This document shows positions 6,182 to 62,955 of a stretch of 64,000 nucleotides of DNA, piece by piece. Positions within the stretch are counted from its first letter, which is position 1. Each line of letters opens with the position of its first letter. The notes below the pieces were generated by a model. It did no database searches. It had not been told where the DNA came from and saw only the letters and a program-made list of their open reading frames with translations. Source of the stretch: Pyrenula massariospora (taxonomy: Eukaryota > Ascomycota > Eurotiomycetes > Pyrenulales > Pyrenulaceae); assembly GCA_021030905.1 (NCBI GenBank), contig JAGFMI010000015.1, positions 434,001 through 498,000 of the forward strand, given 5' to 3'. Both the position numbers and the translations under genes were made by a program.

Positions 6182-7270
6182 TCACATAACGACCGTCGCC
6201 CTTCCCTTCAGCTTACCCTCCTTTAGCAGATCGTATGCCTCTTGAATCTGATCAAATGAAAACCTCTCAACATCTACGCGCAACTTTCCAGCCTCGAACA
6301 ATTTACACACCTGCCTCAGATCATCTCTAGTACTCGCAATCGAAGTCATGAATTCACACCCAGTAGGCAAAAGCCCCCATCCCACCCTAATACTCCCTCC
6401 TTCCAACCCGGGAACTACAATCCTCCCCCCAGCCCTCGACACCTCCGCCGCCAACTTCAACGAGTCGTCACTCCCAACAAAATCAACCACCCCATCCACC
6501 CCCCTCCCTCCATTCCGCCTCAAGATCTCCTCCGCCGCCCCCTCTCCCGCCCTCACCGCCTCATCCGCGCCCATCTCCCTCGCAACCCCAAGCCTCGCCT
6601 CACTAACATCCATCCCAAAAACCCGACACCCCCCACCCAGAATCTTCCCAAACTGCACCCCAAACGCCCCCAACCCGCCAACCCCAATAACCACCATCGC
6701 CCCGCCCGCCCTCAACCTCCCCCCTCCCCCTCCCTCCCCCAACTTCCTCACCGCATGAAACGCCGTAACCCCCGCATCCGTCAACGCCGCCATCTCCACC
6801 AAATCCACCCCCGGATCAACAACCACCACCTCCTCCCTTGGCACAGCCAAGTACTCCGCCAACCCCCCATCCTCCCCCGCCCCCCGCGTCACCGCGACCG
6901 GCCCCGCCCTGTACGCCTCGCAATAGTTCTCCTCCCCCGCCAAACAAAACCCGCAATTCCCACAGTGCCGAATATGATGCACCAGCACTTTATCCCCGAC
7001 TTGCACATCCGTGTCCGCGACCGCCTCCCCAATCTCCACCACCACGCCCGCGTTCTCGTGCCCGAGCACAAAGGGCGCGGGGAGGTGCGCGGCGTAGAGC
7101 GGGTGACCCGCCATAAGGTCGAGGTCGGTGCGGCAGAGGCCCACGGCGGCGGTTTTGAGGAGGAGGGCGCGGGGCCCCGGGGAGGGGATGGGGAGGGTGG
7201 TGTATTGGCCAAGGGGCGAGGACCAGGAGGGCAGTGCGAAGGCGCGCATTGTGTTTGGGGGAGGAGGCAT
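6182..7270 (-). CDS. Zinc-dependent alcohol dehydrogenase (MDR superfamily)
   Basis: An intron-less frame of 362 residues if the ATG at 7270 is used; a second ATG seven codons on (7249, MRAFALPSW) is equally good. Catalytic zinc ligands are seen in GLCRTDLD (C46) and GHENAG (H71, E72). The four-cysteine structural zinc lobe is [15 protein letters not shown] (C103, C106, C109, C117). The Rossmann motif is GVGGLG (196-201), and the Asp in FGMDVS after the second strand favours NAD over NADP. The chain ends with the family's [10 protein letters not shown]. It should oxidise a primary or secondary alcohol, or reduce the carbonyl, in the cytosol; the substrate is unknown. The frame stays open upstream through the microsatellite, but that Ile-His-Pro-Ser repeat is best read as untranslated leader. 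The top strand is strongly C-rich left of about 7070 and G-rich to the right (see findings). Confidence 0.88.
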
Positions 7271-7340
7271 GGTCTGGGGGGAGGGATTTTGATTTTTTTT
7301 TTTTGGGCGGGGAGAAAGCTGGCGGGGGGGGAGCGTGATA

Positions 7341-7396
7341 GATGGATGGATGGATGGATGGATGGATGGATGGATGGATGGATGGATGGATGGATG
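7341..7396. repeat. (GATG)14 tetranucleotide microsatellite
   Basis: About 14 uninterrupted GATG units, the last one degenerate, lying 70-126 bp upstream of the alcohol dehydrogenase ATG. It is followed downstream by an interrupted T tract (about 7287-7304). On the minus strand it reads as (CATC)n and happens to be open in the dehydrogenase frame. Such a repeat is expected to vary in length between strains. Confidence 0.97.
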
Positions 7397-8937
7397 AATG
7401 TTTTTCTTCGGTTGTTTTGCGAGAACAAAAAGCTTCTCTTCTCGTGTTAGGCTGGTATGGAGTTTCTGGTAGATTTTCACGATACCCTGTCTGCTTTGCT
7501 TCGATGGATACTTCAACCGGTTACCTACGGCCGTGGACTGCAAAGTAAGGCAAGGTAGGGCTCAGGTCTTCGATCACGAATATCGTATTGTAGAAACCCT
7601 ATCAAGCAAGCAGCAGCAGTGACAAGCACTGCATTGGCAGATAGATAGATCCCTTCGGACATGCAGCTTGCTTCAGATCTCAGTCAGATTCCCGCGTGAT
7701 CCAGTTAGGTCAGAACATCTCACCCTCCCCCCTCTCCACACCCTCCATCTCTCACTTCCAAAGTTCACATCACCGCGGATACGAGTACGCCAGAATGCTC
7801 AAAAAGCGGGGAAATGTATGTATCCAGCCAAAGCAGGCAAAAAGCGGCGTGCGGACTTCTCTCTCTCGTGCGACAATCCAAACGGCAATCGTCCAACGAT
7901 CGATCTGCGCGTATCCCCCTTTCCCCTTCCGTCACTCTACCTAGCTAGTTAGTACGAACACCTGCAGCCCTACGTAACGTAACGTCGTCGCCGTCTCGCC
8001 CGATTGCCTTTCAAAAGACACGGCTTGCCGCATTCGTGCTCCGCGTTCCAAGAACGGGAAAGGAGTGTTTCCGAAACAATAAGTTTCTTTCGTAAGTTTT
8101 TTGGGTCTCTTTGTCCACACAGATCCGGAACCGGTGTTTTGGGTTTTCAGTCTCGGGTCCTTCCGGGGACCCGGGAGAGGGTCACCTCGGAGGCAGAGCG
8201 AGGCTGTGGGGTGGAACATGCATACATATTCGTTCTACCGGGCCCCCAAGGATGGGAATTTGCGATTCTGTCGTCTAATTTCTGTCGGTCTGGAGAGGAG
8301 AAGTGGGTTTGTGTTTCTCTCGGGCGATGGGGAATTTTGGTCACATGGGTGAGGTGTGTCTGTCTCAGGTCTGAAGGAGCAACTCGAAGGAGGGATTCTG
8401 CATGTTGTTGATGAAGACAAGCTCGGCCGCTAAGCGAGGGATCCGTTTCTCGAACGCTTCTACGGTAGATTTTGTACAGCGTGAGGGCACGCGACAGCAC
8501 AACGCAACGCTGTAATGTCTCGCTGGTTGTACTACGTAGACGTTGTTACGAGTGTTATCCGGGGATGGCCCGTTGGGGAAAATGTGAGACACTGACACTC
8601 TTCTCGTTGTGTCACGGCGGATTCGTTTCAGGAGTTTTATCCTCGGCAGGCCAGGATTCTGGTTCAATCTTTGCGAGATAGGGGGAGAATGATTCACAAC
8701 AATTTGGAAGAATGGTAGTTTGTGTATGTACGGTGATATATAGAATATGATACAAAAGAAGTCATGCCCGATACATCGTAACCGAGGGTCTGGTCAAGTA
8801 AACGAGGGACGCTTTTGCTAAAGAAAATCCTATACAATCCAAGAAAGGTAAACCTGTACATTCGACTCTGCCTTCTTTTTGAGCGTTCGTACCAAACAAA
8901 GTCGTAAACGACAGTCATAAGACCCTCTGCATGTCTG
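7397..8937. other. Spacer between alcohol dehydrogenase promoter and Cu-ATPase 3' end
   Basis: No gene is supported. Overlapping frames on both strands at 7668-8700 show no family features. The top strand is C-rich around 7720-7930 and G-rich around 8150-8360, one of the weaker skew-switch regions. The last 200 bp probably hold the Cu-ATPase 3' UTR. Confidence 0.4.
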
Positions 8938-16030: not shown

Positions 16031-18663
16031 CTTGAGTGTGTCGCAGCGAGGTTGCGCTAGGGAGGGAGGAGTCGAGCGACAAGATGAGAGTAGGCTGGTT
16101 GAGGGGAGGGGGAGGAGCATTCACTATAAGGCAAGCAGGGTGTTTTCCTCTACTGCAATCATCGACCCATGCCCATGTCGGGGCACCTTAGCTCATGTGA
16201 GAGCCCCGGGGATGGTGGTGCGAGAAGGGTGAGATCGGCCAATGGGAAGGCGGGTCAATGGGCATCTAGCCCAAGAACAAGCAGGGCCCTCTTATCGTAC
16301 CTACAGGGTAGCTACGGGCGGACTACGTCCATATCGATGGTTATTGGGGGGTCGGCTCAAGGAGGCAGGAACAACGACAGCGTCATGCTTGGCCATCGTC
16401 ACCCAATGATGCGCGGCTGCGGCGAGGCGAATCTGGGACGACGGTTATGGTTATCACGCCCTGGTTGCACCTCGGTCGAACCGAGCAGGAGCAATTGCGG
16501 CTTTGGTCGATGGCGACGATAGCCCGCGATTATTTGCAGAAAGAAGCTCCGCTGCCGAGTCTGGGCAGGCAGGAGCTAATGTGACGCTGCTCCATGGGTC
16601 CTTCCGGACGTGGGCTAGCAGCCGCGCGTGGGGCCGGTGGAAACCGACAGATTGGCCCGCGGGGGCAGGCGGTGAATTGATTGACAGCCAATGGCCCAAG
16701 GATAAGCATGACCCTCTTGCCCCCCGGTTAAGGACCTGCTCGAAGCTTGCAATCTCTGGACGCTCTGGGCGCCTTTCCCACTTGCAAAGGGCGTATACGG
16801 AAAATGGATGCGTCTTCTCCCTGATGCAGCGTGTAGTTGTATGTTGCCCGCTGACGGGCGTCTCTTGGCCGCCGTTCTTGGTCGGGCTTCTTGGTGATAA
16901 GCACCCGCGCCACCAGCCGCCTCCTATCAACGACTGCTCATTTGAGTCTTGTTCGCAAGCCCAGCCCACTAAGAGATGGTCACATTCATCCCTCGCTCGG
17001 CAACGTCCCTGCAAGCCATCGCAGGACCGTCAGCCATCAAGCCGAAAAGGACAAGTTGTCGAGATATCGAAGACGTCAAAAGGTCTTGGTACTGGCTCGC
17101 GCATGCAAACCTTTAACCCTTACCTCCCAAGTGCCCCGCCAAGCATAATGTACAATAAAATGCACCTAACAATAGATCGCCCCAATCTTCTGATATCGAC
17201 AGCTCCTCCATGAAAACCCCCTCGCTTTGATTGCACTGTCCTACCAAGGGGGTGAGTGTTCCCAAAGAAAAAAAAGAAGTTTCAATTGATGCTCGATTTG
17301 AACTTCCTAAAACGTAAATATTAGTTATCATTCAGCCGTTGGCCTGAGCTCGCCGTTCAGGCGCAAAAAGGTCCTAATACATCTTAGCACCTTCCGTACC
17401 AGCTACCTAACCTTTATAAATTTACAGTCTGCGCTGGAAGAGATCGAGAAGTCAGACCGGATGAATTGGCGAATACGGGGAGTGGCGAGAGGGAGAACTT
17501 CGTCTTCGGGGTGGCATGCGATCTGCTACATTACCCCACGCGGGTTTTTTACATTGGGCTGAGTGAGACGAAGACGGACCATGGCAGCGTCATCAAGATA
17601 TGGAAAACGAAGTCCCTATCTGGGACTATCTCCAGGTAGATAAATGTCGCTTCTAGAGTAGTGCCACGCTACCTTGCTTCTCACGGCCTCAGGATCGCGC
17701 ACTGAAGACGCGATCTGTCGTATCAACCCCACCATCTCTACACCCTGCTAACACGATTCGGATAAATGATGATCGCCTGCCACGCAACGTCATTGAACCG
17801 ATATTACCTCCTCGCGCCTCTCACAAGCTAACGGTATTGCACGAAAAAGGCTAAGTTCTACTGTTCACGACAGCCTCATTCTCCGTCTCACAATTGGATG
17901 CGAAAAATCAACGCTACGAGGCGAACCAAATACGCGCACGATACCACACTTAAACGCGAGTGATCGATTTGTATCCTGGTCTCGGAGCCCGGAACCAACC
18001 CTGCACGTTGCACATGTGCCGCATGTACCCCGCAAAACCCTGATCGCTGATTGCTTTAGCCTCCCATCTCTAGGAATCCTAGAGAGAGCGGGTAGAAAAT
18101 GATGCAAGTCTATAAAGAGCAAATTGTTGGGCTTTGGGACTGATGCTGAGCTTGGCATCCCTAAAGCCACGCCCCGGATTTTAATAACCACAGCATAGTG
18201 TCTCGAGTGTTAGGTGGGATCAGTTCAGGGCCTTAGCAATCAATTGCAGGCACCATACAGTCTCTGAAGTTGCGTCGCTTCTCTAACCCCCAGCTTGAGT
18301 CGCTTTGCATCCCGCTGGGCCTCTCTACTACCCTGATTAACGTTCCCGTCTCGGGGTTTCCAGCTTGCCAGCCTGATCAGGTGTCAGCCTCGTAGTATCT
18401 CGACGGGGGCCAACGCAGCCATAATGTTTCAATGCGAGACTGGCCCGTAAAGCTCCGACCAACGACCCCTAAGCAGCAAAAATGCATATATGCCATCGTC
18501 CATCTTGCGAAGCCCGAGTAGAGTAGGTACTAATTCAGGCAGCAACCCACAATTCGCGGCCTCTGGTAAATAAAATCCTGTACTAATCAAGTTCCCCTGC
18601 GTTTTCTCGACCTACTTCTATCTATTCATTATTTTCCCACTCTCGCCATCGTTTTCCTTCACC
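16031..18663. other. 2.6-kb divergent promoter region (OPT leftward, cupin protein rightward)
   Basis: Long intergenic space between divergently transcribed genes. Frames at 16169-17213 on both strands are mutual shadows in GC-rich DNA, with no family features. The right 60 bp before 18664 is pyrimidine-rich (CTTCTATC, TTTTCCC), as in fungal core promoters. No tRNA or repeat was recognised. Confidence 0.4.
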
Positions 18664-19722
18664 ATGGCCCCCGAACGCACCGCTACTAAAGACCAGGACG
18701 TCGTCTCTATTGACGGTCCGGCGAACCGCATCTACGACTTTAGCCACGCCCAACAAGACCTGCATACCGTCCACGTTACAGTTCCAAAAGGCAGCAAGTA
18801 CCGCGGCGAGCCTTTGCACTGGCATGAGCAATATACGGAAGTATTGACATGCATCGAGGGCCGCGCACACGCCTACTGGGGTACTGGACTTTATTCTAGC
18901 GTTGACGCTTTCTTCTCCGCCGGATCAAGCGAGACCATTCCAGGGTGGGCGGCACATTATTGGGGTAGAGAGGATCAGTGGCAGACCGCTACGAAGCAGA
19001 AGGAGGTGGGGGGATGGAGAAGAAGGATCTCACCGCTATCAGGCACTGATGCACGGAAAGACGAAGATGCGCCCTTACTCTCACCGAGGTCGGACGATAT
19101 CGAGAAGCAGGCAGCCCACGCCCATGCTGCTTTGAAACCTCTAACAGAGGCGCCAACAACTGACAACCCTAGAAACACCACCGACTCCGACCGTGACAAA
19201 CCCTTAACCGTCTCCATCTCTCCATCTTCGAGCTACTGGGACCAGCGCCACTCCGCCGCCCACGAGCTCCTCCATCGCCACGTCGCGTCGCTCACCCTCG
19301 ACGCCGAGCTCTACCCAACCCTCCCCACCACCCCACTTCCCATCCGCCTGCTCTTCTCCCTCCCCTGGTTCCTCTTCCCCCACGCCCTCCGCGCCTACCT
19401 CATCGCCTACTTCCTCTCCATCCAGCTCCTTGTGCTGTACTCGACCGACCCGCTGGATTTCCACCCGTACCTTGGCACCGTCCCGGTGGTATGGTTCTGG
19501 ACATGGCGGGGCTTATTTGTATATCGGGCGCCGGAGTGGGCCGCACGGTGGCAGTGGAATAACATGATCGTTGTTAGTCATCTGAAGGTTGCGTTCTGGG
19601 CGAGGGTCGGGAAATGGTTTCTTGGCATGAAGGAGACGTATCCAGAGTATACGCCAGAGAGGTTAAAGGATGTTTTGAAGGACTATCCAAGCGCGGGGGG
19701 AAGCGGTGTTCAGAAGTCCTGA
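18664..19722 (+). CDS. Cupin-domain protein with C-terminal membrane segments, unknown function
   Basis: A single-exon frame of 352 residues; its ATG sits in CACCATGG, an optimal context. Residues about 30-115 look like an RmlC-type cupin: LHWHEQYTEVLTCIEG carries a HxH...E pattern (H52, H54, E59) that could bind a metal, and GWAAHYWGRE follows in the second half. Residues about 115-210 are a Ser/Asp-rich linker. The C-terminal part holds two or three hydrophobic stretches (RLLFSLPWFLFPHALRAYLI, FLSIQLLVLY, VVWFWTWRGLFVY), then an amphipathic end. A soluble cupin tethered to a membrane is an unusual arrangement; I do not recognise a characterised homologue. The gene changes from C-rich to G-rich coding strand near 19,460 (see findings). 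Confidence 0.75.
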   Translation: MAPERTATKDQDVVSIDGPANRIYDFSHAQQDLHTVHVTVPKGSKYRGEPLHWHEQYTEVLTCIEGRAHAYWGTGLYSSVDAFFSAGSSETIPGWAAHYWGREDQWQTATKQKEVGGWRRRISPLSGTDARKDEDAPLLSPRSDDIEKQAAHAHAALKPLTEAPTTDNPRNTTDSDRDKPLTVSISPSSSYWDQRHSAAHELLHRHVASLTLDAELYPTLPTTPLPIRLLFSLPWFLFPHALRAYLIAYFLSIQLLVLYSTDPLDFHPYLGTVPVVWFWTWRGLFVYRAPEWAARWQWNNMIVVSHLKVAFWARVGKWFLGMKETYPEYTPERLKDVLKDYPSAGGSGVQKS

Positions 19723-20656
19723 GGGCGATGGGCTCGAGGCTTCTTCTCCATTTCATAGGTCTATTTCCAACTTCCATAGGTCGTCTACCCTCACGTGTAC
19801 GAATAGGAGTGGATCCTAGTTTCAGACAGCATCTACTGCGTATCCTTTTTCCGCACAACCCTCATTCTCGAACTGCTACATCGGGGCTAGTGCCATTTCC
19901 CATGCTCTTCTTCTACAAAGCAGTTCCAATGAGCCCTCCCCAATCGGGTGGTCCTTCTCTTCTTATTTCATCTCACATTGATATGGCTTGGAGACACACA
20001 ACTCAATCTCGAATTTTCCCCCTTTAGAAATTGACAATTCCCCCCCCTCCTCTCTACCCTTTCTCAATTAACCCAATCCCCAACTCGCTGAAACCGGTCG
20101 ACCCTCTCGCCTCCTCGTCTCGTCCCGTCCCATCCCGTCCCTTCCGCGTCACCGTCGCATTGAATCCAAACGACCCTTGCAAGGCAGTTTCCATACCCAT
20201 ACCCATACCCAAACCCTGCGACACCTATATATCACACCGCAACAACCAAAACATATCCCCCAATCAATGCTCCCTATCGCTCCCCCGATAGGCAGGCAGC
20301 CTAGGTAAGGTAGGTAGGTATCTCCCCCATTCCCAAACCCACCGCATCCTATTCTGTTGACAAGGAAATGCCCCCCGCACGCCCCACAATCGTACACCCC
20401 ACAATCCCACAATGCTGTATCCCACAATCCCAATCCTTATACTGGACTAAGGTAAACCAAACCAAACCAAACTACGCTTCATATAGTCCAGCACAGCACA
20501 GTAACTCACACTACGGCACAACCAGCTTCTGCATGAAAGCCCACAACTCATCGCCATCGCAGGAGCGCAAATCTCGCCATACGTACGTACGTATCATTCA
20601 TCCATCCATTCATAAAGCCGGCTAGCCCTCCCTCCGTTTCGCAGCGTTTCTGAACT

Positions 20657-20673
20657 CCCCCCCCCCCCCCCCC
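20657..20673 (+). repeat. C17 homopolymer
   Basis: Seventeen consecutive C on the top strand, at the end of the C-rich arm of the skew switch. Such tracts vary in length and are error-prone in assembly. Confidence 0.95.
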
Positions 20674-21093
20674 TGGGCCACTCCGTAGGTAGCCAAGTGT
20701 GAGGGCACGTGCCAGGGCACTTGGCCAGGGTACCTTGGCAACTCATTATGCTCGTCCTTATTAGGATTAGCCCTTGAGGTACCCTTATAGAGCGCTTCTA
20801 GATAGAATAACTAATAATATCAGACTTGAAATGATGCTCTTATACCAAGTCTGTGTGGGGACGTTTATCACGGGCTCATCTTGATGTCTCCGAGATACGG
20901 GGCGTTCTGTGAAGGCGGGGGAGGGTTTAGAAAGCTGTGTTGCTTAGCTGGGTAGCTGTTTACCTGGATACCTGTAGGGGGTTGGGTGGGTTGTTGGTTG
21001 GATGGGTAGTTTTGGCGCGGACGGGCTGCCTACCTAGGTAGGTTGGGCATGGCGGTATTTGGAAGGGTATGCATGCAGGCCGGGGTTAGCATT

Positions 21094-21117
21094 GTAGGTA
21101 GGTAGGTAGGTAGGTAA
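21094..21117 (+). repeat. (GTAG)6 tetranucleotide repeat
   Basis: Six tandem GTAG units in the G-rich arm of the convergent spacer. Related TACCTAGG and GGTAGGTA words occur nearby at about 20301-20322 and 21030-21042. Confidence 0.93.
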
Positions 21118-21584
21118 ACGGGGCTCTTTGGGGGGTGGGGGGTATGGAGAAGCTGTACCGGCCTGGATAGATGGGAGAGATGATAGGTGGTTAGGCATGT
21201 AAGTATTGATGAGTTGGTAGGCAGTGCTGAAAAACGAGGGAAAGAAATATAATGACAGTTGTTTTGAAAATGTATCTTTGAATTATGAAGCGAGGAAGAG
21301 AATTGTGACGGCTCAGGTTTTCAATATGCAGGTTTGAATTATGTACTCGTTCGAGGTATTTTGTGAGTGTTTTTGATAGCCAACGCTGCACTCTTTAGTT
21401 TGATCTGGATTTCTTTTGCAAGCAAACACGAGAAAAGAACCCGGCAAGGACTTGGTGCAATATTCACAGCTACCTCCACACGCCCACCCCACAATGCTGT
21501 TCTTCATGCAGACAAAAGATTACTCCGTATGCTCAAATGCTCTTCTTTGCAGATCCTCTCTTCTCTCTCTCCCAGCGCAATCCA

Positions 21585-22397
21585 TCACAGCAACGCCGCC
21601 GCACCCACAGCGACCGCCAACAACCCCGCCGGAGCCTTGATCGCAGCACCCACCCCCGGCGCAGACGTCGAGACCGCGCTCGCGGCCGCACTACTCGTCG
21701 CGCTAGCCGAGCTACTATCCGTGCTCGTGCTTGCCGCTGCTGAGCTCGAACTCGAGTCACTAGACGACGAGGACGAGGTGCTCGTGCTCATCGTGCTGTC
21801 CGAGCTATTCGACGTCGAGCTCGACGAGCTGGAGCTCGAGCTCCCGGATGTAGTCGAAGACCCGCTCGTGGACGAAGAGGACGCGGTGCCGGTGGACGAC
21901 GCGGCCGAGGGGGAGGCGGTGTTGGTGGCGCCGTTGATCTGGAAGTTGTTGGTGAAGTTGATCTGGTCGGGCTGTTGGTCGTTGATGATCTCGATCGTGT
22001 AGGCGAAGCCTTTGCTGACGTCTGTGGGGATGTTCACGGTCGTGGAGCCGCTGTTGGGGATATTTGCTGTTCTCTGCGTAAGCCACAGTCGGGGGATGAA
22101 AGATGGAGTGGGGGGAGACTTACCGGCAAGGACGGTACCGCTCGTTGGTCCGATATTGCCGCTCTGATATTGGAGCTTGATGGTCACGGTTCTGGCCCAT
22201 TGTCAGTCTGCGTCCTTCTTCCAAGCACAGCGTTTCAAAACTCACTGGCCCTGCTGATTTCCCCACGACAGAGGCAACGGCTTGCCGGCCTGCACATCTA
22301 ATCCTTGAGCTGGGATGTTGAAGGCGTTGGGGCTGTTCTGGGCCGCGACAAGGGCAGCACAGAGCGCCAGGACAGATGAAAAGATGGAGACGCGCAT
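21585..22397 (-). CDS. Secreted Ser-rich GPI-anchored wall protein with Kre9/Knh1-like N-terminal domain
   Basis: Three exons: 22397-22246, 22191-22124 and 22066-21585. Intron 1 (54 nt, GTGAGT, CTGAC, GCCAG) restores GNQQGQTVTIKLQY. Intron 2 (GTAAGT donor) ends most simply at 22067 (57 nt), giving TVLAANIPNSGS; the nearer CAG acceptor would break the frame. Residues 1-19 are a signal peptide (MRVSIFSSVLALCAALVAA). The next hundred residues (LPLSWGN, TVTIKLQYQSG, AYTIEIIND) resemble the Ig-like Kre9/Knh1 N-terminal domain found in fungal surface proteins. A Ser/Thr/Ala stalk of about 100 residues should be heavily O-mannosylated. The end (GVGAAIKAPAGLLAVAVGAAALL) is a typical GPI-attachment signal. 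The likely place is the plasma membrane or cell wall. The role is unknown; a part in beta-glucan architecture is a family inference. Confidence 0.8.
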
Positions 22398-35676: not shown

Positions 35677-36942
35677 TTGGAGATACTGGCCAAAAATGAT
35701 ATAAATGAAAGCGTGGCTTAGGACGAGGGCTTTGGTAAATGGGTTCTTCATTCGAATGGTTCGCGTCTCAGCAAGCCTGTCGTTTCATCGACTGATCTAG
35801 TAAGCTTTCTTGTCTTCGAAATATTACATGAGATGTGAATTAAGACTTTGAACACTCGGAAAAACATCGAGGTCTTCCGAAAATTCATCACCCTTAATGC
35901 GCACGAGAATCGATCTCTGCCCTTTCATAAAAAGCCTTCTTCGACCTTCGTATCCTCCGAGGAGATTCCTTGCCGCCGTTAGTAGGACTTCCTAATATGT
36001 GAAGCTATCTGTCTAGGATTAAAACCGGGCCTCAGGGGTCAAACTTCCTAATCAGATTTCGGAAGCGCTTCCCTGTACTATCTTATAAAGTCTCGTCAAC
36101 TATGAGACACGACTCATAACAATTTATCCAGTCTTTTACATATTATACGTAGGGATTATCTTCAGGTACAGTCTTCGACATGTGCAAAAATAGAATGATC
36201 GACATTGTTCCTGCATAGTGGTATAGAGCTCTTAGAGCCTTCGCTGTCTCATCCTCCTTTAGGACATAGGCTTAGGATCCGTCTCTGACTATGGGCTTCC
36301 GTGGACTGCTGATTGGCCGTACCAGTAACCTTTCAGGCCTACGAAGTTGCAATTATGGGGGCCTGTTCATGGATCTTGATGAAAAGCATACCATAGCGCC
36401 GCACCTCCTGAGCTGCCGCTAGGCAATGATTTAGCTTTTCTTCTGCGGGACGTGGTGGGGGGGTCCAGCTTCGGGGACAGGTGAAGACAGGGTGAATGCT
36501 CATCTACGCATGTGAGTGATGCATCTCTGAATTATGATGGGAAACCCAGTTAACCGATCTCTTTCTTCGATCAGATCCTTCTAAACTCTACGCTCACAAA
36601 ACATGCCACAACGGTTAAAGGCGCCTTGCACGGTCTCCGCCTGAACGACCTCGGCAAAACATTGCTCCTGCTCCGCACATCCTCCCTCATTCCCTCGCTT
36701 CTCCCCTCCACGTTATGCTAGTCTCCCACATTTCTCTCCCCCAGCCCGTCAAGATTTCCCTCGCGATCGAAGTGAGCTCTCCTTCTGCCCCATCACCATT
36801 TGTTAAACAGCCCCAATTCCCCCAGCGCGACCGACCATCCCGCACGTCGATCTTCTGTTCGGGGTTCAGACCGTCGCTGGATAAAGCGAGGCTGGAGGAT
36901 ATCGATAGGAATATAAGAGAGAGGCGGAGAGGGAGTGAGGGT
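35677..36942. other. VPS10 3' flank and cytidine deaminase promoter
   Basis: 1.2 kb without a supported gene. From about 36640 the top strand is C-rich and from about 36880 strongly purine/G-rich; the deaminase frame is open back to an ATG at 36715, so part of this could be coding. Confidence 0.4.
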
Positions 36943-38280: not shown

Positions 38281-38603
38281 GAAGAGGGGAAAGGTGAGGG
38301 TTGGGGGGGGGGGGCGCTGATTAGGCTAGGTTAGGGTGGCTACTTTGTGGTCGTGTCCTGGAATTTGGAGGTATGATCTGAGGGTTGGGTATCATTTCTG
38401 TCTACCATGAATTACAGAACAGAGCTCGCCAACACCCATCTAGAGGCTGACTAATGATCTGGTTTATCCTGCTGACCTACCCGCTCGCGTCTCATCTGCA
38501 AAGATCAAACCCCCGTTAATGCACACGAGTCATCAGTAGAGCTCGATATGGTAAATGCCAACCCTTCAACACCCGACATCCCAAAGTACCGTAAAATATC
38601 GTG
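38281..38603. other. Convergent spacer (cytidine deaminase / RanGAP)
   Basis: About 320 bp between two gene ends that face each other; holds both 3' UTRs. A G10 run lies near 38304-38314. Nothing else seen. Confidence 0.45.
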
Positions 38604-39875
38604 TTACAACCCCGTCTTCCCCAACTTCTCCGCCAACTCATCCACCTCCTTATCCTCCTCTAGCGGCACCTTCTCATCCTCCGCCTCCTCCGCCTCCCTC
38701 AGCACCCGCTCCCCGTAATCGACCTCTTCCTCCTCCTCCCTCTCCGCCTCCGCCCCATCGTCTTCCTCCTCTTCACTCTCCTCCTCGAGCTCATCCAGTT
38801 CATCGATCCCCCAGTGATCCTCAGGATCCTCGTCCCTGCCGCGCTCCTCCTTCCGCTCGCTAAGCAACTCGGATAAGGCCTCGACGCTCGGGTCGTCCTC
38901 GGAGAACTTATTGCCGTTTAGCTCCACCCTCCGGAGAGCAGGTAGGCCGTCCTTGGTCGCCTGCAGCAGAGCCTTCACCCCTTTCGCATCGATATCATCA
39001 TACTGCAGCCGCAAAACCTCTGTTTTACTATTACTCCCCTTCCCCAGCGCCTCGAACACCTTAATCGCCCCCCTCGCGCCCAGCAAGTCGTCCCCAACGC
39101 CCAGCTCCTTGAGCTCCGTCCAGTTCCCCACCGCACCAGCCAGCGCCGTAGCGCCCATAATCGTAAACGTGTTGTCCTGCATATCCAGCACCTCGAGCCG
39201 CTTGCACCGCGCCAGCCCTTCTTTCAATAAGAGCGACACCCCCTCCTGCCGGATCCCATTCTGCGTCATCTTCACACTCCTCACCCCCCTCGCATGCGCC
39301 GTATACACCCCCGCCCACGCGCCCATACTCCCATTCTCCAGCCGATTCCGCCCGCACACCACGCTCTCCAGCTCCGGCACCTCCCCCCTGCCCTCAGCAC
39401 GCGCCTCCGCCTTGCGCCGCGCGAGCTCCGTCAGCGCTTGCGCAATCGCCGCCCCCGCGATGGGGCCCATGCCGTTGTTGTTCAGCACGAGGTGCTGCAG
39501 CGGGGTGTGGCGCGAGAGGAAGTGCACGAGCGGGTCCTTGGTGTTGAGGCCGAAGGCGTTGTCGCTGAGGTCGATCGTCGCAAGGCGCGGGCAAGATAGC
39601 AGAGCGGTGAGGAGGGAGGAGAGGGCGGGCGGGATCTCTTCGAGGAGGCGGGAGGTGAAGATGTCGTGGAGGTCGGCATTGGTCAGGGAGGTTTGGGCGG
39701 AGAGGAGGGGGGCGAGCGAGGCGCAGAAGGGGGCGCCGAGGGTGTTGCCGGAGAGGTCGATGTGGGTGTATTGGTTGCTGGTTTTTAGGGGGGAGGCGTG
39801 GGTTTCGAGGTCGGTGGCGGTGTCGAGTTTTAGGCCTTTGTTGCGGAGGGAGAATGTGGTCGAGGGGGACGCCAT
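38604..39875 (-). CDS. RNA1: Ran GTPase-activating protein (RanGAP, Rna1)
   Basis: A single exon of 423 residues. Eleven or so leucine-rich repeats fill residues about 30-345 (HIDLSGNTLG, TIDLSDNAFG, HLVLNNNGMG, SVKMTQNGIR, EVLDMQDNTF, RVELNGNKFS). The catalytic loop LHDIFTSRLLEEIP carries Arg76, equivalent to Arg74 of fission-yeast Rna1, and the Asn of NNNGMGP sits where the second catalytic residue is expected. The C-terminal 80 residues are strongly acidic (ELEEESEEEEDDGAEAE), as in fungal homologues, and there is no SUMO-targeting domain as in animals. It stimulates GTP hydrolysis by Ran in the cytosol and so keeps the gradient that drives nuclear transport. Top-strand composition is C-rich left of about 39450 and G-rich to the right. 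It is divergent from COX17 with 329 bp between starts. Confidence 0.93.
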   Translation of the reverse strand: MASPSTTFSLRNKGLKLDTATDLETHASPLKTSNQYTHIDLSGNTLGAPFCASLAPLLSAQTSLTNADLHDIFTSRLLEEIPPALSSLLTALLSCPRLATIDLSDNAFGLNTKDPLVHFLSRHTPLQHLVLNNNGMGPIAGAAIAQALTELARRKAEARAEGRGEVPELESVVCGRNRLENGSMGAWAGVYTAHARGVRSVKMTQNGIRQEGVSLLLKEGLARCKRLEVLDMQDNTFTIMGATALAGAVGNWTELKELGVGDDLLGARGAIKVFEALGKGSNSKTEVLRLQYDDIDAKGVKALLQATKDGLPALRRVELNGNKFSEDDPSVEALSELLSERKEERGRDEDPEDHWGIDELDELEEESEEEEDDGAEAEREEEEEVDYGERVLREAEEAEDEKVPLEEDKEVDELAEKLGKTGL

Positions 39876-40204
39876 GGTGGGGATTTAGGCTGAAGATTAG
39901 AGTCGTGGGAGATGGGTTGATTTGTTCAAAGGAGAAGTGAATTAAGGATGTCGACGACGCCGCAATGCTGTGAATTTCAGTCCGCGCTGTGTAAGTCTAT
40001 GAGTCTATGAATATTGATCTGTAGGCAGACGAGGATTTGTTTACTCCAACTCAAGACAATTTTATGCCGTCAGCCCACAGAACCACACACCAATCGGAGT
40101 TAAACCAGATTATTGCCGCATTAGCTCATAGACAACATTTCTAAGCTCGAATTAAACCACTCTCCGAACTCTTCAACACCTACAAGCTTTTGGGAGCTCT
40201 TAAG
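39876..40204. promoter_or_regulatory. Bidirectional promoter of RNA1 and COX17
   Basis: 329 bp between the start codons of two divergent housekeeping genes; both 5' UTRs and both core promoters must lie here. It is AT-richer than the flanking coding DNA. No specific element was identified. Confidence 0.5.
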
Positions 40205-43515: not shown

Positions 43516-45230
43516 ATGTCGAAAACTAAGTCCAAGAGCTCAAAGGCCGAATCCACCAGGATTGAGCCTAATGTCATTCCCAAAACAAAAAATACGGGGG
43601 TCACGAAACCGTCTCAAGCACCAAAGGCCAAGAGCAAGGAAATAGCCAAAGGAGTTGCAGAAAAGTTGAAGAACAAGAAGGCGAAAATTCCTTCTCCGGA
43701 ACCTAGCGACTCTGAGAGTGACGAAGATGTGAAAGAGGACAGTGAAGCTGAGAGCGCTTCCTCACCCAGCTCTGCTAGCTCTGAGGACGATCAGAGCGAG
43801 AGTGACATCGAAAGGCATGCTGCCCTACCAAAAGCTGCCAGAGCCAATGGAGCTCTCGAAGCTTCCGATTCTGATGATTCTGATGAGAGCGCTGACAGCT
43901 CTGATAGCTCTGCCAGCTCCGATGATGAGAATGACAGTGAAGTTGAAGCTCAATCTTCTCTACCAAAAGCTACTCCAGCTGTGGCTATGAAAGCCAATGG
44001 AGCTCCGAAACGTGCAGATTCTGATGCTAGCGCTGACAGTTCTGACAGCGACTCAGAGAGCGGCTCTGACGCAGCGAAACCGGTACATGGTGCCGTAGAT
44101 TCTTCCGACGAAGATGAAGATGAAGAGGAGACTGAGACTTCGAAACCTGCCCGGCAGACCAACGCCGCAGAGCTGTCCAAGAAACCCGCTGTCTCAGCCC
44201 AGTCTTTAGATAACGGTTCGGATGACGACTCTGGCGATAGCAGCGAGGCATCTTCTAGCGATGAAGACGAAGACAGCGAAGAGGATGTGGCTACTAAACC
44301 GGCCCCCAAACGCAAAGCTGAAGAGGAATCGCCATTCGCTGCAAAGAAGGCGAAGGCTGATCGCGAGAACCAAAGTGACAACGCTACTGCCAGTAAAAAT
44401 CTCTTCGTTGGTCAACTGGCTTGGGCTGTCACGGATGAGACACTCACCGAATATTTTCAGGAATTCGGCGAGCTGACTCGTGCAAGTGTCATAACAGATA
44501 AGGCAAATGGACGATCAAAGGGGTATGTCATGATGAATGAATCTCTTACCTGCTAAATGCTAATTCACACAGGTTTGGCTATGTTGAGTTTGCTAATGCC
44601 AAGGACGCTAGTAAAGCGCAAGCTGCGATGCACGGGGCGGAGATCGAGGGCCGGAGTATCAGAGTTGATTTCTCGCAGCCTCGCCAAGAGAAAGGTTCCT
44701 ACCAAGAGAGGGCACAAAGCCGCGCTAAGTCTTTTGGAGACCAGCAAAGTCCACCCTCCGATACCTTGTTCGTCGGCAATGTCGCATTTGATGCTGATCA
44801 GGGTACACTTACCGAGGTCTTCAATGACTACGGGTCCATCTTAGGTGTTAGGCTTCCCACCGACCGAGATACTGGGGCTCCTAAAGGTTTTGCATATGTG
44901 ACCTTTGCCTCTGTCGACGAAGCGAAGGCGGCTTTGGAAGGGGCACAGGGGGCTTACGTTGGTGGACGATCGCTCCGTCTTGACTTCAGCACACCGCGTC
45001 AAAATGGCGACTCTTCTGCTCGCGGTGGGTTTGGTGGCCGCGGAGGTGGTCGCGGAGGTTTTGGTGGGCGTGGTGGAGGCGGGCGCGGCGGCTTCGGTGA
45101 CCGTGGTGGACGTGGTGGCTTCGGTGACCGCGGCGGACGTGGAGGTCGAGGCGGCGCTCGTGGTGGGAGAGGTGGATCTACCAATCGGGGCGGCCTCAGT
45201 GATTTTGCTGGCAAGAAGACAACGTTTTAG
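43516..45230 (+). CDS. Nucleolin-like nucleolar RNA-binding protein (Nsr1/Gar2 type)
   Basis: Exons 43516-44522 and 44573-45230, with a 50-nt intron (GTATGT..CACAG) rebuilding SKGFGYVEF; 554 residues. The start at 43516 gives MSKTKSKSSK; the frame is open further upstream but that text is not conserved. Layout: Lys-rich N-terminus, acidic Ser tracts (about 60-265; SDSESDEDVKEDSEAE, SSDEDEDEEETE) suited to casein kinase 2, then RRM1 (LFVGQL at about 296; GFGYVEF) and RRM2 (LFVGNV at about 400; GFAYVTF). A GAR domain of GGRGG/GGFGDRGG units runs from about 481 to 535 and the end is KKTTF. Nsr1/Gar2/nucleolin helps process 35S pre-rRNA and assemble the 40S subunit. The GAR domain is normally methylated on arginine. 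Control is probably through the octamer array upstream. Confidence 0.92.
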
Positions 45231-51669: not shown

Positions 51670-54066
51670 ATGCTGAAGCTAGTGCTAGCCATCATCGCCA
51701 CAGCTGGCTTTTTTAGTGACCATGCCGATGGCAAGATACCACGACATAGGAAAATAAGACAAAGGCAGACGTATTCTTATTCGCCAGGTATTAATGGTTC
51801 GTTCACCAACGTGACAAATGCGCAGCTCTCGGTGAACACGCAGAATGGGACGAGAAATGCAACAGCGCCGTTGCTCTATGGATGGATGTTCGAGGACATC
51901 AATGTAAGGAGCGCGATCCCTTGTGCTCAAAACTGGTACTGATCGTTTCGTTTAGCACAGCGGAGATGGTGGTATATATGGCGAAATGCTGACCAATCGA
52001 GCTTTTCAAGGTAGAAAACTTGATGCTCAGATATCGGATTACATACTAAAAGTTTGAAGGATCGACTTCGAAAATTGGGGCCATCCAAGGCATTCCAGGT
52101 TCCAGCGTTCAAAGCTCAGAAAATCCACTCCTTCCCTGGGGGCCTGTTCTGACTGGGTGGGGCGCTATTGGAGATGTGCGGCTTTCTCTTGATATGCTAC
52201 ATCCGCTGTCGGACGAGCTCCCCATCGTCCTCGAGATTGATATCCCAACTAATGCTACTGGAGAAGTTGGTATTGTGAACTACGGTATGTACGGGTTACC
52301 CTTGAACATGAATGTGGGCTAATTTTCAAGGCTGGTGGGGAATGGACGTTCGACCAAGAACGTACAACGCCTCGTTTTATATCCTTGCTAATAACCCGCG
52401 ATACAACACCACCTTCACTGGCATTGATGTAAAGTTGCGATCAAATCTAACAAGTGAGGTTTGGGCAACATCAACGATTCCAGTGGGCAACGACACAATA
52501 TCACCTTTTGAATATACCCAACTTTCCGCGGAAATTGTCAACACCGTAACAGCACCTTATGTAAATAACTCCTTCTCTATTACTATGGATGGCGCAGCGG
52601 TCGCCGGCAATACTTTCTATATTGGATTAGCAAGTCTCTTCGGCGAGACGTATAATAACCGTCCAAACGGTATCCGCAAAGACCTCGCGCAACACGTCAA
52701 AGATCTAAATCCTAAATTCTTGCGATTCCCAGGTGGCAATAATATCGAAGGTTATTCTATCTACGAACGTTGGAAATGGTACGATACAGTTGGCCCTTTA
52801 ATCCATCGCAAGAGCCGAGTTGGCGATTGGGGATATACTAATACAAACGGCCTCGGCTTGCTGGAATTCTTGGAATTCTGCGAAGATATCGGGATGGAGC
52901 CGGTGCTTGCTGTTTACGCAGGGTTCTCACTTGACGTCTTTGGTCAGGAAGGAACTTCATTCCCGGAATCTAGGATGGGCGATGTACTTCAAGAAGTGCT
53001 AGATGAACTCGAATATTGCACAGGCGATACTTCAACAAAGTACGGAGCTATGCGGGCGGAGCATGGACATCCAGATCCATTTGTGATCAATTATGTTGAG
53101 ATTGGTGAGCATCCCTCTGGTCCCCCAAAGCCTATGAAACCCCGCCTTGGCACACCCGTCCTCCCTGCTTATCAAGACACCAATTGACCCGTCGATTCTC
53201 CAGGCAACGAAGACTGGTTCAGCACAACCTACCCCTACCGCTTCCCCTACATGTACAACGGCATCAAAGCCGCATACCCCAACATCACCCTAATCAGCAC
53301 CGCCTTCAACGAAAACCCCAACTACACCATCGACATCCCCCCCGGCGGCTTCTGGGACACCCACCACTACGAAGAACCCACCTTCTTCCTCGAGCACTTT
53401 TCCGAATTCGACAACTTCGCCGCCACCACCAACCTCACCGACGTCTCCGTCTTCATCGGCGAGTACTCCGTCTTCCAGGTCGACACCCCATCGGGCGTGG
53501 TCAACTTCTCCGACCCGGTCGGCGAGCACATCTTCTACCCTACCCTCCTCGCCGCCCTCGGCGAGGCCGTCTACCTCCTCGGCGCCGAGCGCAACCCGAA
53601 TGTCGTCAAGCTGAGCAGCTACGCGCCGAGTTTTCAGAACTTGAATTGGTATAATTGGACGCCGAATTTGGTGCAGTTCACGGCGAGCTGGGACGAGACG
53701 ATTTTGAGTGTGAGCTATTATATGCAGAGCATGTTTGCGCGGTGGCGCGGGACTGCCGTGCTGCCCGCCACGGGGACCGTTAATCCGCTGTTCTGGGTCG
53801 TGCTCATCGACGAACCCACCAACGTCATCTATTTGAAAATCGTGAACACGGCCGGCGCGCCGATACCGCTGAGCATGAGCCTGGACACGTCGTTTAGCAG
53901 CGTGAACGGGACGATACTCACGAACGAGGATTTGAACGCGTTTAATTACAAGAATAATCAGACGGCGGTGGTGCCGGTGCCGTTTAGTGTGGGGAATGCG
54001 AGCGGGACGGCGTTTGAGTGGGATGTGCCCGCGTGGAGTGTGAGTGTGTTGCAGTTTGATCCGTGA
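51670..54066 (+). CDS. Secreted alpha-L-arabinofuranosidase, glycoside hydrolase family 51
   Basis: Five exons: 51670-51903, 51956-52010, 52060-52284, 52331-53104 and 53204-54066; introns 52, 49, 46 and 99 nt; 716 residues. The start at 51670 gives a signal peptide (MLKLVLAIIATAGFFSDHADG). The first splices assemble WMFEDINHSGDGGIYGEML and NRAFQGS, the entry to the catalytic domain. The acid/base Glu is in NYVEIGNED (E432) and the nucleophile in VFIGEYSVF (E516). FLRFPGGNNIEG and GWWGMD are further family motifs. A C-terminal beta domain completes the fold. The enzyme removes terminal arabinose from arabinoxylan and arabinan outside the cell. Codon use changes sharply at the last intron: exons 1-4 are balanced in third positions, exon 5 starts almost all-C-ending and turns G-ending near 53600 (see findings). 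Many N-glycosylation sites (NGS, NVT, NAT). Confidence 0.95.
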
Positions 54067-54515
54067 TCGGGGGGGGAGGGGGGGAGGGGGGATTCCTGTC
54101 CGTGGGCGGAGCCGCCGTGAGCTCGCGCGACGGGTGCGGGTCTGGTGGTGGTGTCGGGGCGAAGCTGGGGGATGAAGGATGAGATGCCACACCCTTGGCC
54201 GAGCGCTGCTGCCTAGGGACGAAGTCGATCCCCGTAGCAGCCGTATTCAGGAGTTGACTCCATCCATATCAGAAAGCAATACAGACATAAAATCAACACA
54301 AGTAATCAGCTAGTTTCTACAGAGTGTACCTGGACATTGCAACCATTTTCCGACGCAAGACACTACCACTATGGTCTTGTCTTCTCTTCCCTAAAAGTCA
54401 TACATGGGAGTAATCAAAGCTCGAAAATCTCGTTGTAGAGCAAAGGAAGCCGTCGTTCGCAGTTTACGTGGTGTAAAGGAAAAGACACCGCTCGCTGCCT
54501 CGCACGTTCTGGGTC
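54067..54515. other. Arabinofuranosidase 3' flank
   Basis: 450 bp. Begins with a G-rich stretch (54067-54090), the right end of the skew-switch region. No gene seen. Confidence 0.4.
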
Positions 54516-61734: not shown

Positions 61735-62288
61735 TGAAGCCAGTCGTCTTCGTAGATGAATATAAGTTTATGAGGCTCAGTTGTACTCAGAATGAGTGTT
61801 CTGCAAATGTTATCGAGGTAGCATTGTGCGGTCTGTCTACCCTGGGGCGAAGGGTAGCGGTGAGAGCTTTTGAGGTTAAATCAAGTTGACTGAGTCATGA
61901 TCGCCAACCACATCCACTATAGTGCATGCTATACATTGCGTCTCTGATCGCTCAAGCTGGGTACTCAGTGTGGACGAGCCGGTGTAGGAAGTGCCGGTCG
62001 AAAGTTGGTGCCCGATGCGAAAAATTTCCGACCGGCGCTCGAGCAGGGAATAGGGCATGGCGGAGACTAACATCGACAAGAGATAAGATAAGATTAGATG
62101 AAAGTTTTCCCGCACTGTCTTCATCAGCTCTTTCCTGGATTGACTCCTCATTAAGCGTTGTGCGCACTGTTTTTCTCTAAAAAAGTGCATATATATTTCG
62201 AAACACGCGAATGTATACTATTTCTCAAGCTAGAAATCGCCGTTAAAGCTTACCCTCCCAACACGAAGCTCCACGACCTCCGCACATC
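61735..62288. promoter_or_regulatory. Divergent promoter region of the ornithine carrier and CGR1
   Basis: 550 bp between two divergent start codons. It must hold both promoters. Short frames in it (61876-62190) overlap on both strands and are not credible. No specific element was recognised. Confidence 0.45.
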
Positions 62289-62682
62289 ATGTCGCAAAAG
62301 CCTCCGCCCACCAAGACCCTCCGCAAAAACGGTACCTCCCTCTCCCACCCCCACGCTCATCCCGCACACCCCTCCGCCAGCTCACACGCCCACAGGCAAA
62401 TCCTGGCACACCCCCCGTACCGCCTTCCGCCCAACCTCCGGCCTCACCACCTTCGCCAAACGCCAACAGGCGCGCTCCACCGCCTCCGCCACAAAGACCC
62501 TCGAGCGCGAGATGAAGGCTGAGAAGGAGTCGGCGAGGGAACGCTTCGTCGAGGGGATTAAAGAGCGGAGACGGAAGAAGGAGGAGCAGGCTCGGTTTGA
62601 GAAGATGGAGGAGAAGATGCATAGGAGGCGGGTGGAGAGGGTGAAGAGGAGGGAGAAGAGGAATAAATTGCTCGGGAAGTGA
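62289..62682 (+). CDS. CGR1: rRNA-processing protein Cgr1
   Basis: Exons 62289-62331 and 62396-62682, with a 64-nt intron (GTACCT donor, CTCAC branch, CACAG acceptor) joining KTLRKNG to KSWHTPRTAFRP; 109 residues, close to the usual 110-120. KSWHTPRTAFRPTSGLTTF is the conserved core. The remainder is a long basic, charged helix (FVEGIKERRRKKEEQARFEK, EKMHRRRVERVKRREKRNKLL), characteristic of the family. Cgr1 acts in the nucleolus in 60S pre-ribosome processing and supports heat tolerance in Aspergillus. The coding strand is C-rich in the first half (61 C to 16 G in 62281-62400) and G-rich in the second (60 G to 7 C in 62581-62700). Confidence 0.9.
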
Positions 62683-62955
62683 GTGGGATGGGGGAGTGGT
62701 GTGGAAGATGGGGTGGAGTGCATGGGGTCTGGCGTTAAAGGAGAAGGAAAGGTTCAGTGTGTTCAAACACGGCGGTTTTGGAAGCATATTTGATCAATGA
62801 AATTAGTACTGATCATCAGCAGGCTACCGTGAGGAAGTAAACCATCTATTTCGCTAGGCAAGCTCGTGGCAAATGATCCTTTTTCGTCTTCTCTATATTC
62901 AGTACGGGGTATCTTGTCTATATTATATCGTTCAAATCCGCATCGCATCCTAGAC

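Follow-up and report, generated by a model that had tools for sequence, protein, structure and literature searches.

Discrete C-to-G strand switches at G+C peaks in the genome of Pyrenula massariospora and their possible origin at meiotic break hotspots

In the genome of Pyrenula massariospora the top strand is C-rich to the left and G-rich to the right of discrete centres, and this C-then-G pattern (a dyad) is real and genome-wide. We counted strong switches (250-bp arms, at least 0.2 per base) in 304 kb, made up of 25 stretches sampled from this one 37.8-Mb genome, and found 22 C-to-G against 4 G-to-C switches, which puts strong dyads some 14 kb apart on average. Permuted and randomly flipped 150-bp blocks gave 3.0 C-to-G and 2.4 G-to-C switches, with maxima of 8 and 7 in 60 runs. 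Mean G+C was 0.617 at the 22 C-to-G switches and 0.532 at the 4 opposite ones. Among 588 random positions, the two polarities were about equal beyond a skew of 0.2 (33 versus 37). Because skew has to come back, opposite crossings often fall where two dyads abut, and a tally of crossings at all positions is uninformative, so we turned to sites picked by G+C alone. The polarities are told apart by strength and G+C, not by the number of crossings. The original prediction, that C is always followed by G, was too strong: opposite crossings occur, some of them strong (38424, +0.49/-0.48; 40040, +0.54/-0.39) in the window, as we call the whole 64-kb stretch of DNA first analysed. Its expectation that the opposite polarity would be rarer was borne out for strong switches and failed at random points.

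G+C peaks were picked without regard to strand in the window and 23 loci, and each was scored by whether skew was higher in the 400 bp to its right than to its left. Peaks closer than 450 bp to an end were left out, and locus L001, which sits within the window, was excluded from the scans. At G+C peaks of at least 0.67, the right side had the higher skew in 21 of 22 cases. Below 0.67 the bands were weaker and uneven in polarity, with 6/12 at 0.64–0.67, 21/26 at 0.61–0.64, 22/43 at 0.58–0.61 and 47/83 at 0.55–0.58. G+C troughs ran in the reverse direction to peaks, since among 140 of them none was C-to-G and 16 were G-to-C beyond 0.2. For a later sample (loci L025–L035, of which only L035 enters the 304-kb switch count), the G+C-peak count was fixed beforehand and peaks within 300 bp of an end were dropped (none was flagged as edge). 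The right side was higher in both peaks of at least 0.67 and in five of the six of at least 0.63; three of these five agreeing peaks had the same sign in both arms and are thus gradients, not clean switches.

Ten switches had been named in the window by eye, with four hand counts that proved exact (67 C/12 G, 63 G/16 C, 61 C/16 G and 60 G/7 C). With 300-bp arms, nine of the ten came up when negative-to-positive crossings were ranked (7065, 62502, 36853, 39454, 20753, 19484, 38099, 21765 and 8041); the tenth, at 53620, was missing from that ranking, yet was clear at fourfold-degenerate sites. The C-rich arm of the first dyad (6350–7065) lies within a minus-strand alcohol dehydrogenase gene (Pfam ADH_N, ADH_zinc_N), with C at 86 and G at 8 of 112 fourfold sites within 600 bp. 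Its G-rich arm (7065–7380; G at 33/51 fourfold sites) extends beyond the likely start codon (about 7272, placed by eye) into upstream DNA, where 7273–7335 holds 31 G and 5 C in 63 bases. A GATG repeat at 7337–7400 falls partly inside this arm. The same extension beyond a likely start codon (about 39876, again by eye) was seen in a gene named by its PDB match to Ran GTPase activating protein (RanGAP, E 7e-95). Here the C-rich arm (38450–39455) had C at 76/108 fourfold sites within 600 bp, the G-rich arm (39455–39960) had G at 66/90, and the upstream part, 39877–39960, had 32 G and 7 C; the 3' flank was the weakest flanking arm (47 C/26 G of 154). In CGR1 (Pfam Cgr1), the C-rich arm (62240–62502) contains an inferred intron at 62332–62395 with 38 C and 7 G of 64 bases, and the G-rich arm (62502–62765) continues past the stop codon at 62682; in the 3' flank, 62683–62765 holds 41 G and 5 C of 83. 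Toward the 3' end of a GH51 arabinofuranosidase gene (Pfam), single bins were almost uniform: within its C-rich arm (53188–53620; C at 59/71 fourfold sites) the bin at 53338 was 23/23 C, and within its G-rich arm (53620–54100; G at 51/67) the bin at 53938 was 19/20 G.

Other dyads in the window were centred at 21765 (21480–22200), in a minus-strand Kre9/KNH-type wall protein gene (PF10342; fourfold sites 27/41 C in the C arm, 39/85 G in the G arm), and at 19484 (19160–19780), in the 3' part of the plus-strand open frame 18574–19722. A Pfam search with this frame gave no match, which leaves its earlier 'cupin' label unconfirmed. The dyad centred at 20753 (20000–21200) lies in spacer DNA, where two convergent frames face each other with their 3' ends, and had 238 C/89 G at 20100–20700 and 122 G/37 C at 20880–21160. 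It showed no significant codon periodicity and no frame of at least 150 amino acids; six of its 23 short frames were run against Pfam. Neither arm of the dyad centred at about 36823–36853 (36550–37000) had significant codon periodicity. The label of cytidine deaminase, once given to this region and the next, found no Pfam match in frame 36619–37095; it is possible for frame 37512–37979, whose Pfam cytidine deaminase hit lay just below the cut-off and which adjoins the dyad centred at about 38099–38112 (37430–38350). The dyad near 8041–8130 (7600–8750) was recovered with low amplitude (-0.25/+0.24), and a phase test gave p=0.02 for its C arm and p=0.6 for its G arm.

The 12 genes used for counting silent-site composition were picked because a usable frame and a dyad were present. 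Eleven had a family match that passed the cut-off; the twelfth, a membrane-protein gene, had weak, below-cut-off hits only, and the starts of this gene and of Spc19 are approximate. The pooled C strand had C.67, G.15, A.11 and T.07 at fourfold sites, and all 24 arms of these genes, chosen for their dyads, had the expected sign. The C/G log ratio was 1.47 (gene bootstrap 1.27–1.70), an excess of C over G of about 4.3-fold, and it was the same effect whether the C strand was coding or template (C.703 versus.673). On the coding strand C lay toward 5' and G toward 3' in 12/12 genes, an order that would follow from any intragenic dyad. The arms reached about 500–600 bp each way from the centre and then faded, and silent G+C (GC4) was.86–.90 within 300 bp and.52–.53 at 600–1000 bp. 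On the G-rich strand of the pooled G arms, T occupied 53 of 658 fourfold sites (8%) and C 114, while T made up 24–32% of top-strand fourfold sites in four control genes. As T drops on the G-rich strand, the skew does not arise mainly by change of C to T. The original claims of symmetry around the centre, of no dependence on gene strand, of a cause other than codon bias and of presence outside codons were upheld. The arms, which might have vanished at fourfold or non-coding sites, were stronger at the former and kept in the intron and flanks. Beyond 700 bp there was a trend only, with a weak, non-significant reversed skew at 800–1000 bp (-0.13, interval -0.34 to 0.06). At 1500–2000 bp the sign was again that of the arms (+0.24, interval 0.13 to 0.34), an excess for which neighbouring dyads are the one explanation at hand. 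Tandem repeats were rejected as a cause, those found being short and covering little of the arms.

We put at about even chances the reading that each dyad was left by a meiotic double-strand-break hotspot of long standing, with the break sites placed by inference at its centre. Initiation of recombination had been listed among several symmetric processes and is now the best fit. GC-biased conversion with a strand asymmetry would be the mechanism, and escape of C:C mismatches from repair is perhaps its cause. At a break, the 3'-ended strand that would pair with the partner chromosome is the top strand on the left and the bottom strand on the right, so that, on either side, it would be this strand on which C is favoured. 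Conversion near the break would favour G/C over A/T, as in ordinary GC-biased conversion, and at G/C polymorphisms C would win on the 3'-ended strand. A broken chromatid with C and a donor with G would form a C:C mismatch in the heteroduplex, poorly handled by mismatch repair, and a broken chromatid with G would form a G:G mismatch, repaired toward the donor. On that strand C would then gain over G by (c - 1/2)(r_GG - r_CC), a positive quantity as long as conversion is more frequent than restoration (c > 1/2). Since the sign needs conversion-directed repair, a restoration bias would flip it, and the weak reversal to be expected from this at greater distance did not reach significance. Over evolutionary time, many such events would leave a C-rich left and a G-rich right arm, each matching the heteroduplex in length. 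A two-parameter model (GC bias and C-over-G only) gave C.66 and G.16 against the observed.67 and.15. Escape of C:C alone predicted T/A of.103/.076 on the C strand, and the reverse was observed (.071/.106); an extra difference of G:T over A:C repair gives a fit, but with as many parameters as data. Matches to a Spo11-type protein, six MutS-type proteins (one of them MSH2) and three Rad51-type proteins indicated that the break and repair machinery is present. Counting against the hotspot reading are the even split in the G+C band 0.64–0.67 and the centres, 28 of which shared no convincing motif (6- and 8-mers were little above dinucleotide shuffles). A centre motif is not required of hotspots in species without PRDM9. 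The share of C at fourfold sites also depended moderately on which base stood next to it (.62 to.81), and biased conversion predicts no such context effect.

GC-biased gene conversion at recombination hotspots raises G+C locally at silent and non-coding sites and overrides codon choice, and in its ordinary form it treats C and G alike. Our dyads share the local silent excess of G/C over A/T. They differ in the preference for C over G on one strand, with a sign that flips at the centre; equal preference per strand, as expected of plain GC-biased conversion, was absent at fourfold sites, with support from the polarity-blind peaks. Such conversion is named for yeast, mammals, birds and plants (PMC5844332). 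The repair difference needed is base-specific and strand-sensitive, like that described for yeast ARG4 and HIS4, where C/C repair was three- to five-fold less efficient (S. pombe being similar), G/T was the best-repaired mismatch, and post-meiotic segregation showed a 5.0 times enrichment of SNPs yielding C/C or G/G (Mancera et al., 2011; PMC3218862). Those differences were measured in crosses, and the accessible text of that paper draws no tie to genomic strand skew. In S. pombe, C-C mismatches frequently evade canonical mismatch repair (PMC4154643). Intragenic hotspots are found in a fungus, Z. tritici, with 1435 of 2578 in exons, and in this same species, with its published hotspot map, GC-biased conversion is reported as extremely weak or absent (PMC5844332). 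For Neurospora, repair of asymmetric heteroduplex is reported to favour restoration where the marker lies over 3 kb away from the initiator (PMC4727923). We counted against the hotspot reading a single-strand-annealing study whose available text makes strand decisive and not mismatch type (PMC9001825). Among the matches listed in a search of the open literature (titles and abstract starts), none tied strand GC skew to meiotic hotspots or heteroduplex repair; papers on gerbils apparently use 'GC skew' for high G+C content.

Recombination might also act through mutation, if break-primed repair synthesis (top strand rightward, bottom strand leftward) or an exposed displaced strand turned C and A into G. 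This would give the same geometry and polarity, would make polymorphism unnecessary, and agrees with a G-rich strand depleted in both C and A and with the neighbour-base effect. We nevertheless hold it unlikely, because the bins of pure or nearly pure C and G in GH51 would demand a very large mutation bias, and deamination of the exposed 3' tail should, we reason, give the opposite sign. A different proposal is that the initiation and termination phases of the polymerase, or selection against C late in the transcript, make each gene run from C to G. The same polarity, including fourfold sites and untranslated regions, is reported for almost all fungi tested (PMC3315797), and codon periodicity in at least one arm of 26 of 33 dyads (28 scanned centres and five added by hand: 53620, 21765, 20753, 8041 and L018:5004) places most dyads in genes. 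For single genes, however, transcription is inadequate. The MSH2 frame, matched to Msh2 along its whole length, contains one and a half dyads, its coding strand being G-rich, ordinary (GC4 0.40), C-rich and unevenly G-rich in one frame. The GH51 frame ahead of its dyad (52312–53187, about 875 bp) had ordinary GC4 of 0.33–0.48 with 40 C/19 G, and the membrane-protein gene ran for about 1050 bp at ordinary silent G+C before a dyad near its 3' end; one switch per gene at gene ends was therefore not what we found. The Vps10, ALG6 and Clr5-ankyrin genes had no strong dyad, and of five MutS-type frames besides MSH2 three had none, that of L026 a weak one and that of L031 a G-rich stretch. Seven of the 33 dyads were aperiodic in both arms, one of them between convergent frames, and the skewed sites gained G+C too. 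An origin in transcription is accordingly improbable.

Replication origins had also been proposed, each centre being a bidirectional origin from which cytosine loss leaves the leading strands G-rich. The polarity is right and gene strand irrelevant, and T exceeded C on the G-rich strand at 300–500 bp (.15–.17 versus.08) and in 3/12 G arms, as C-to-T change predicts. Against origins, the arms are just some 600 bp long, a strong dyad occurs about every 14 kb and more than once within MSH2, and loss of C should add T and leave G+C unraised, whereas silent G+C rose to.86–.90 and T pooled over the G arms fell below both C and background. We rate this highly improbable, and very improbable the related idea of R-loops or paired sense and antisense transcription from the centre, with the G-rich strand exposed on each side. 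Its symmetry and scale of some hundred bases are suitable, and the outer-arm excess of T over C would suit a minor deamination component. Such divergent transcription would need antisense starts inside most affected genes, and more than once in MSH2, and deamination alone would lower G+C, yet G+C rises. Silent G+C up and T down together disfavour deamination at origins or R-loops as the sole cause. Selection on codons, amino acids or mRNA structure has next to no probability in our judgement: most arms are coding, but their strength is equal whichever strand codes, switches fall within genes, and the arms in intron, flanks and spacer refute it. The low weight given to origins and R-loops depends above all on the rise in G+C, the length of the arms and their spacing.

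The original prediction knew of no description of such switches inside fungal genes; this holds only in part. McLean and Tirosh (2011) described, as averages over genes, C-biased 5' and G-biased 3' gene ends in almost all fungi tested (64 species, Figure 4b; PMC3315797). Alike are the C-then-G order on the coding strand, its presence at fourfold sites and in flanks, the small change in A and T, and an argument against cytosine deamination (PMC3315797). Their skew is averaged over genes, anchored at gene ends and put down to transcription (PMC3315797), whereas ours breaks up into separate dyads, each sharp, peaked in G+C and reaching about +/-600 bp, missing from many examined genes, more than one in MSH2 and some apparently extragenic. 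We infer that averaging intragenic dyads over genes would yield a curve like theirs. We suggest, tentatively and with more doubt than confidence, that through C:C escape on the 3'-ended strand durable hotspots each write a C-then-G dyad (centre the break zone, arms the heteroduplex length), so that one genome is a hotspot map and fungal gene-end skew an average of dyads. If so, hotspot positions, persistence and heteroduplex lengths would be readable from a single assembly without crosses or population samples, also in never-crossed fungi. Biased gene conversion would gain a strand-asymmetric component tied to the measurable weakness of C:C repair, the widespread fungal gene skew so far attributed to transcription would be a by-product of recombination, and analyses of codon usage and protein evolution in such genes would be distorted. 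The GC-compositional strand bias of plants and fungi at transcription start sites resembles the dyads in its C excess near gene starts, and differs in being apparently anchored to those starts (PMC555766).

Our sample comprised the window (bases 434001-498000 of contig C6 in a genome of 37.8 Mb and 33 contigs), 23 10-kb stretches (18 + 5) from other contigs and both flanks of the window, and later one more stretch; all composition results refer to this one species. Its gene set, which includes a Clr5-ankyrin gene, indicates a fungus, probably a filamentous ascomycete. The original prediction had named ten places where a C-rich arm gives way to a G-rich arm on the top strand. Nine were recovered with 300-bp arms, and the tenth, at 53620 in the GH51 gene, was not in the ranked list and is clear at fourfold-degenerate sites; a recount of the four hand counts of C and G was exact. 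Strong switches, defined by 250-bp arms that each carry no less than 0.2 net bases per base, were rarer in the G-to-C than in the C-to-G direction, as predicted (4 versus 22 over 25 stretches, 304 kb). This excess of one polarity held for strong switches and did not show at random points (33 versus 37 beyond 0.2, n=588). When 150-bp blocks were permuted and randomly assigned a strand, so that each locally skewed block was preserved, the result was 3.0 C-to-G and 2.4 G-to-C switches, with maxima of 8 and 7 in 60 runs. Two of these four fairly strong G-to-C switches are one at position 9379 of stretch L014, 621 bp from the end of that stretch, and one at position 771 of L019, which adjoins a dyad at 1216.

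Crossings counted at all positions are uninformative because the skew must return, and sites were therefore picked by G+C alone, blind to strand. At G+C peaks of at least 0.67, right-side skew was higher in 21 of 22; lower G+C bands were weaker and uneven (6/12, 21/26, 22/43 and 47/83). G+C troughs were reversed, with 0 C-to-G versus 16 G-to-C beyond 0.2 (n=140). In a later sample, under a test fixed in advance, the polarity agreed in 2/2 peaks of at least 0.67 and in 5/6 of at least 0.63, three of these five being gradients with both arms of the same sign. The dyads are a real, strong, genome-wide and strand-symmetric compositional feature.

Strong dyads are about 1.2 kb wide and on average about 14 kb apart, and G+C is highest at the centre of a dyad. 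For 25 peaks, the log ratio of C to G on the C strand (top on the left, bottom on the right) was 0.24 at 0-100 bp and 0.82 at 100-200 bp, with no difference from zero detectable at 600-700 bp. We used fourfold-degenerate sites because they are free of protein constraint, and the arms survive there alone, 12/12 C arms and 12/12 G arms having the expected sign. Since these genes (ten, four on the plus and six on the minus strand, with two added later) were picked for carrying a dyad, the arm signs are only descriptive, and the proof lies in the strand-blind tests. In the ten genes, the top strand of the left arm has 512 C, 99 G, 89 A and 49 T at 749 fourfold sites, and that of the right arm 457 G, 114 C, 53 T and 34 A at 658. 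Within 300 bp of the centre, silent G+C is.86-.90, falling to.65 at 500-600 bp and.52-.53 at 600-1000 bp. The C fraction reaches.79 at 200-300 bp. The predicted independence of gene strand was borne out (C.703 where the C strand codes,.673 where it is template); the neighbouring base alters C moderately, from.62 to.81.

The arms also extend outside codons. In the CGR1 dyad (62502), the inferred intron inside the C arm has 38 C and 7 G in 64 bases, and the 3' flank inside the G arm 41 G and 5 C in 83. Codon periodicity was absent from both arms in 7 of 33 dyads at a cut-off of p<0.05; missing periodicity may stem from introns, so some of the seven may be coding. One of the seven, the dyad at 20753, occupies the spacer separating the 3' ends of two convergent frames; no frame in this spacer reaches 150 aa, and the six short frames searched had no Pfam match. 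Its G arm holds a GTAG repeat of 5.8 copies (21094-21116). Upstream of the alcohol dehydrogenase gene, sixteen GATG repeats (7337-7400) occupy the outer edge of the G arm. Arms may be enriched for short tandem repeats. Elsewhere, GGTGGCCGCGGA-type tandem repeats at 45033-45172 form a local G-rich, G+C-rich stretch; the region 44801-45200 (G+C 0.625, skew +0.25) was not recovered as a C-to-G switch.

The original prediction knew of no description of such switches inside fungal genes. This stands for discrete dyads, none of which we found described in titles and abstracts among the matches listed, but not for gene-averaged skew, which is published: in almost all fungi tested, coding strands are reported to favour C at 5' ends and G at 3' ends, at fourfold sites too (PMC3315797). 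That polarity is the same as in our dyads, which are partly anticipated by it. The dyads nevertheless differ from a gene-end effect, as single genes tell them apart. In the MSH2 gene (L028:1-2346; MutS domains II-V, with PDB chains named Msh2 matched over their residues 165-923), 13-18 of 20 fourfold sites are G in the first 600 bp of the frame portion in this stretch, followed by a brief C excess; the sequence is ordinary at 751-900 (GC4, the G+C at fourfold sites, 0.40), 33/37 sites are C at 1201-1350, and beyond about 1650 there is an uneven return to G (16/26, 11/23, 10/27, 13/18 and 11/11 per bin). A G arm and, after it, a complete dyad therefore share a single reading frame. Likewise, silent G+C in the GH51 gene is ordinary (.33-.48) for about 875 bp, in which C mildly outnumbers G (40 to 19), before fourfold bins with 23/23 C and then 19/20 G, and a membrane-protein gene has about 1050 bp of ordinary composition before a weaker dyad. 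Fourfold profiles of Vps10, ALG6 and a Clr5-ankyrin gene showed no strong dyad. Averaging intragenic dyads over many genes would yield a curve resembling the published skew. Several more dyad genes encode small conserved proteins (Spc19, Mis14-like, CGR1, V-SNARE and ATP10), and a possible cytidine deaminase frame lies at 37512-37979 (24.3 bits for Pfam dCMP_cyt_deam_1, where the cut-off is 25).

Skew at replication origins, on leading strands and at R-loops is usually put down to deamination of C where a strand is exposed, a process expected to increase T and decrease G+C. In the arms, silent G+C goes up instead, and the G-rich strand has T at 53/658 sites (8%), compared with 24-32% of top-strand fourfold sites in four control genes, which makes deamination unlikely as the main cause. 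Between 300 and 500 bp from the centre, the G strand carries more T than C (.15-.17 versus.08), as do the G arms of 3/12 genes, which leaves room for a possible minor deamination component. Origins would moreover be expected to produce skews spanning many kilobases, which the width and spacing of the dyads do not match. The dyads are probably linked to recombination. Their arm length is similar to that of meiotic heteroduplex, and a break at the centre would give exactly their symmetry: the top strand on the left and the bottom strand on the right would be 3'-ended and in heteroduplex with the partner, and C would be favoured on the 3'-ended strand on both sides. A recombination-linked mutation bias is a possible cause as well.

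The mechanism we infer within the break-repair reading is an escape of particular mismatches from repair. Pooled composition resolves into three components, G/C over A/T (1.30), C-over-T with A-over-G (0.93) and C-over-A with T-over-G (0.53); the bootstrap interval of each lies above zero. The first would be ordinary GC-biased conversion, and the strand-asymmetric part mismatch-specific escape. A broken chromatid with C opposite a donor G would form a C:C mismatch, and one with G a G:G mismatch; if repair near the break is donor-directed and C:C is poorly repaired, C would be lost less often, with an advantage of (c-1/2)(r_GG-r_CC). The observed sign would follow only if repair is conversion-directed. 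The repair order is supported by reports that yeast repairs C/C with three- to five-fold lower efficiency and S. pombe about as poorly, G/T being repaired best (PMC3218862), and that C-C mismatches often escape canonical repair (PMC4154643). A model with GC bias and C-over-G only gave C.66 and G.16 (observed.67 and.15) and put T slightly above A, which is the wrong order; adding a difference of G:T over A:C gave an exact fit, which is no test because all degrees of freedom are spent. Judging by protein matches in the genome (Spo11-type, six MutS-type and three Rad51-type), the break and repair machinery seems to be present. The mismatch-repair gene MSH2 itself bears a G arm and a full dyad. 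Of the five further MutS-type frames, one (in L026) has a weak dyad and one (in L031) a G-rich stretch, and the last three carry no dyad. In Neurospora, markers more than 3 kb from an initiator are reported to undergo restoration (PMC4727923), and the sign reversal farther out that restoration predicts appeared as a non-significant trend only. Around the 25 strongest G+C peaks, a C excess of the same sign on the C strand returns at 1500-2000 bp (log ratio +0.24, interval 0.13-0.34), which perhaps reflects neighbouring dyads with a preferred spacing.
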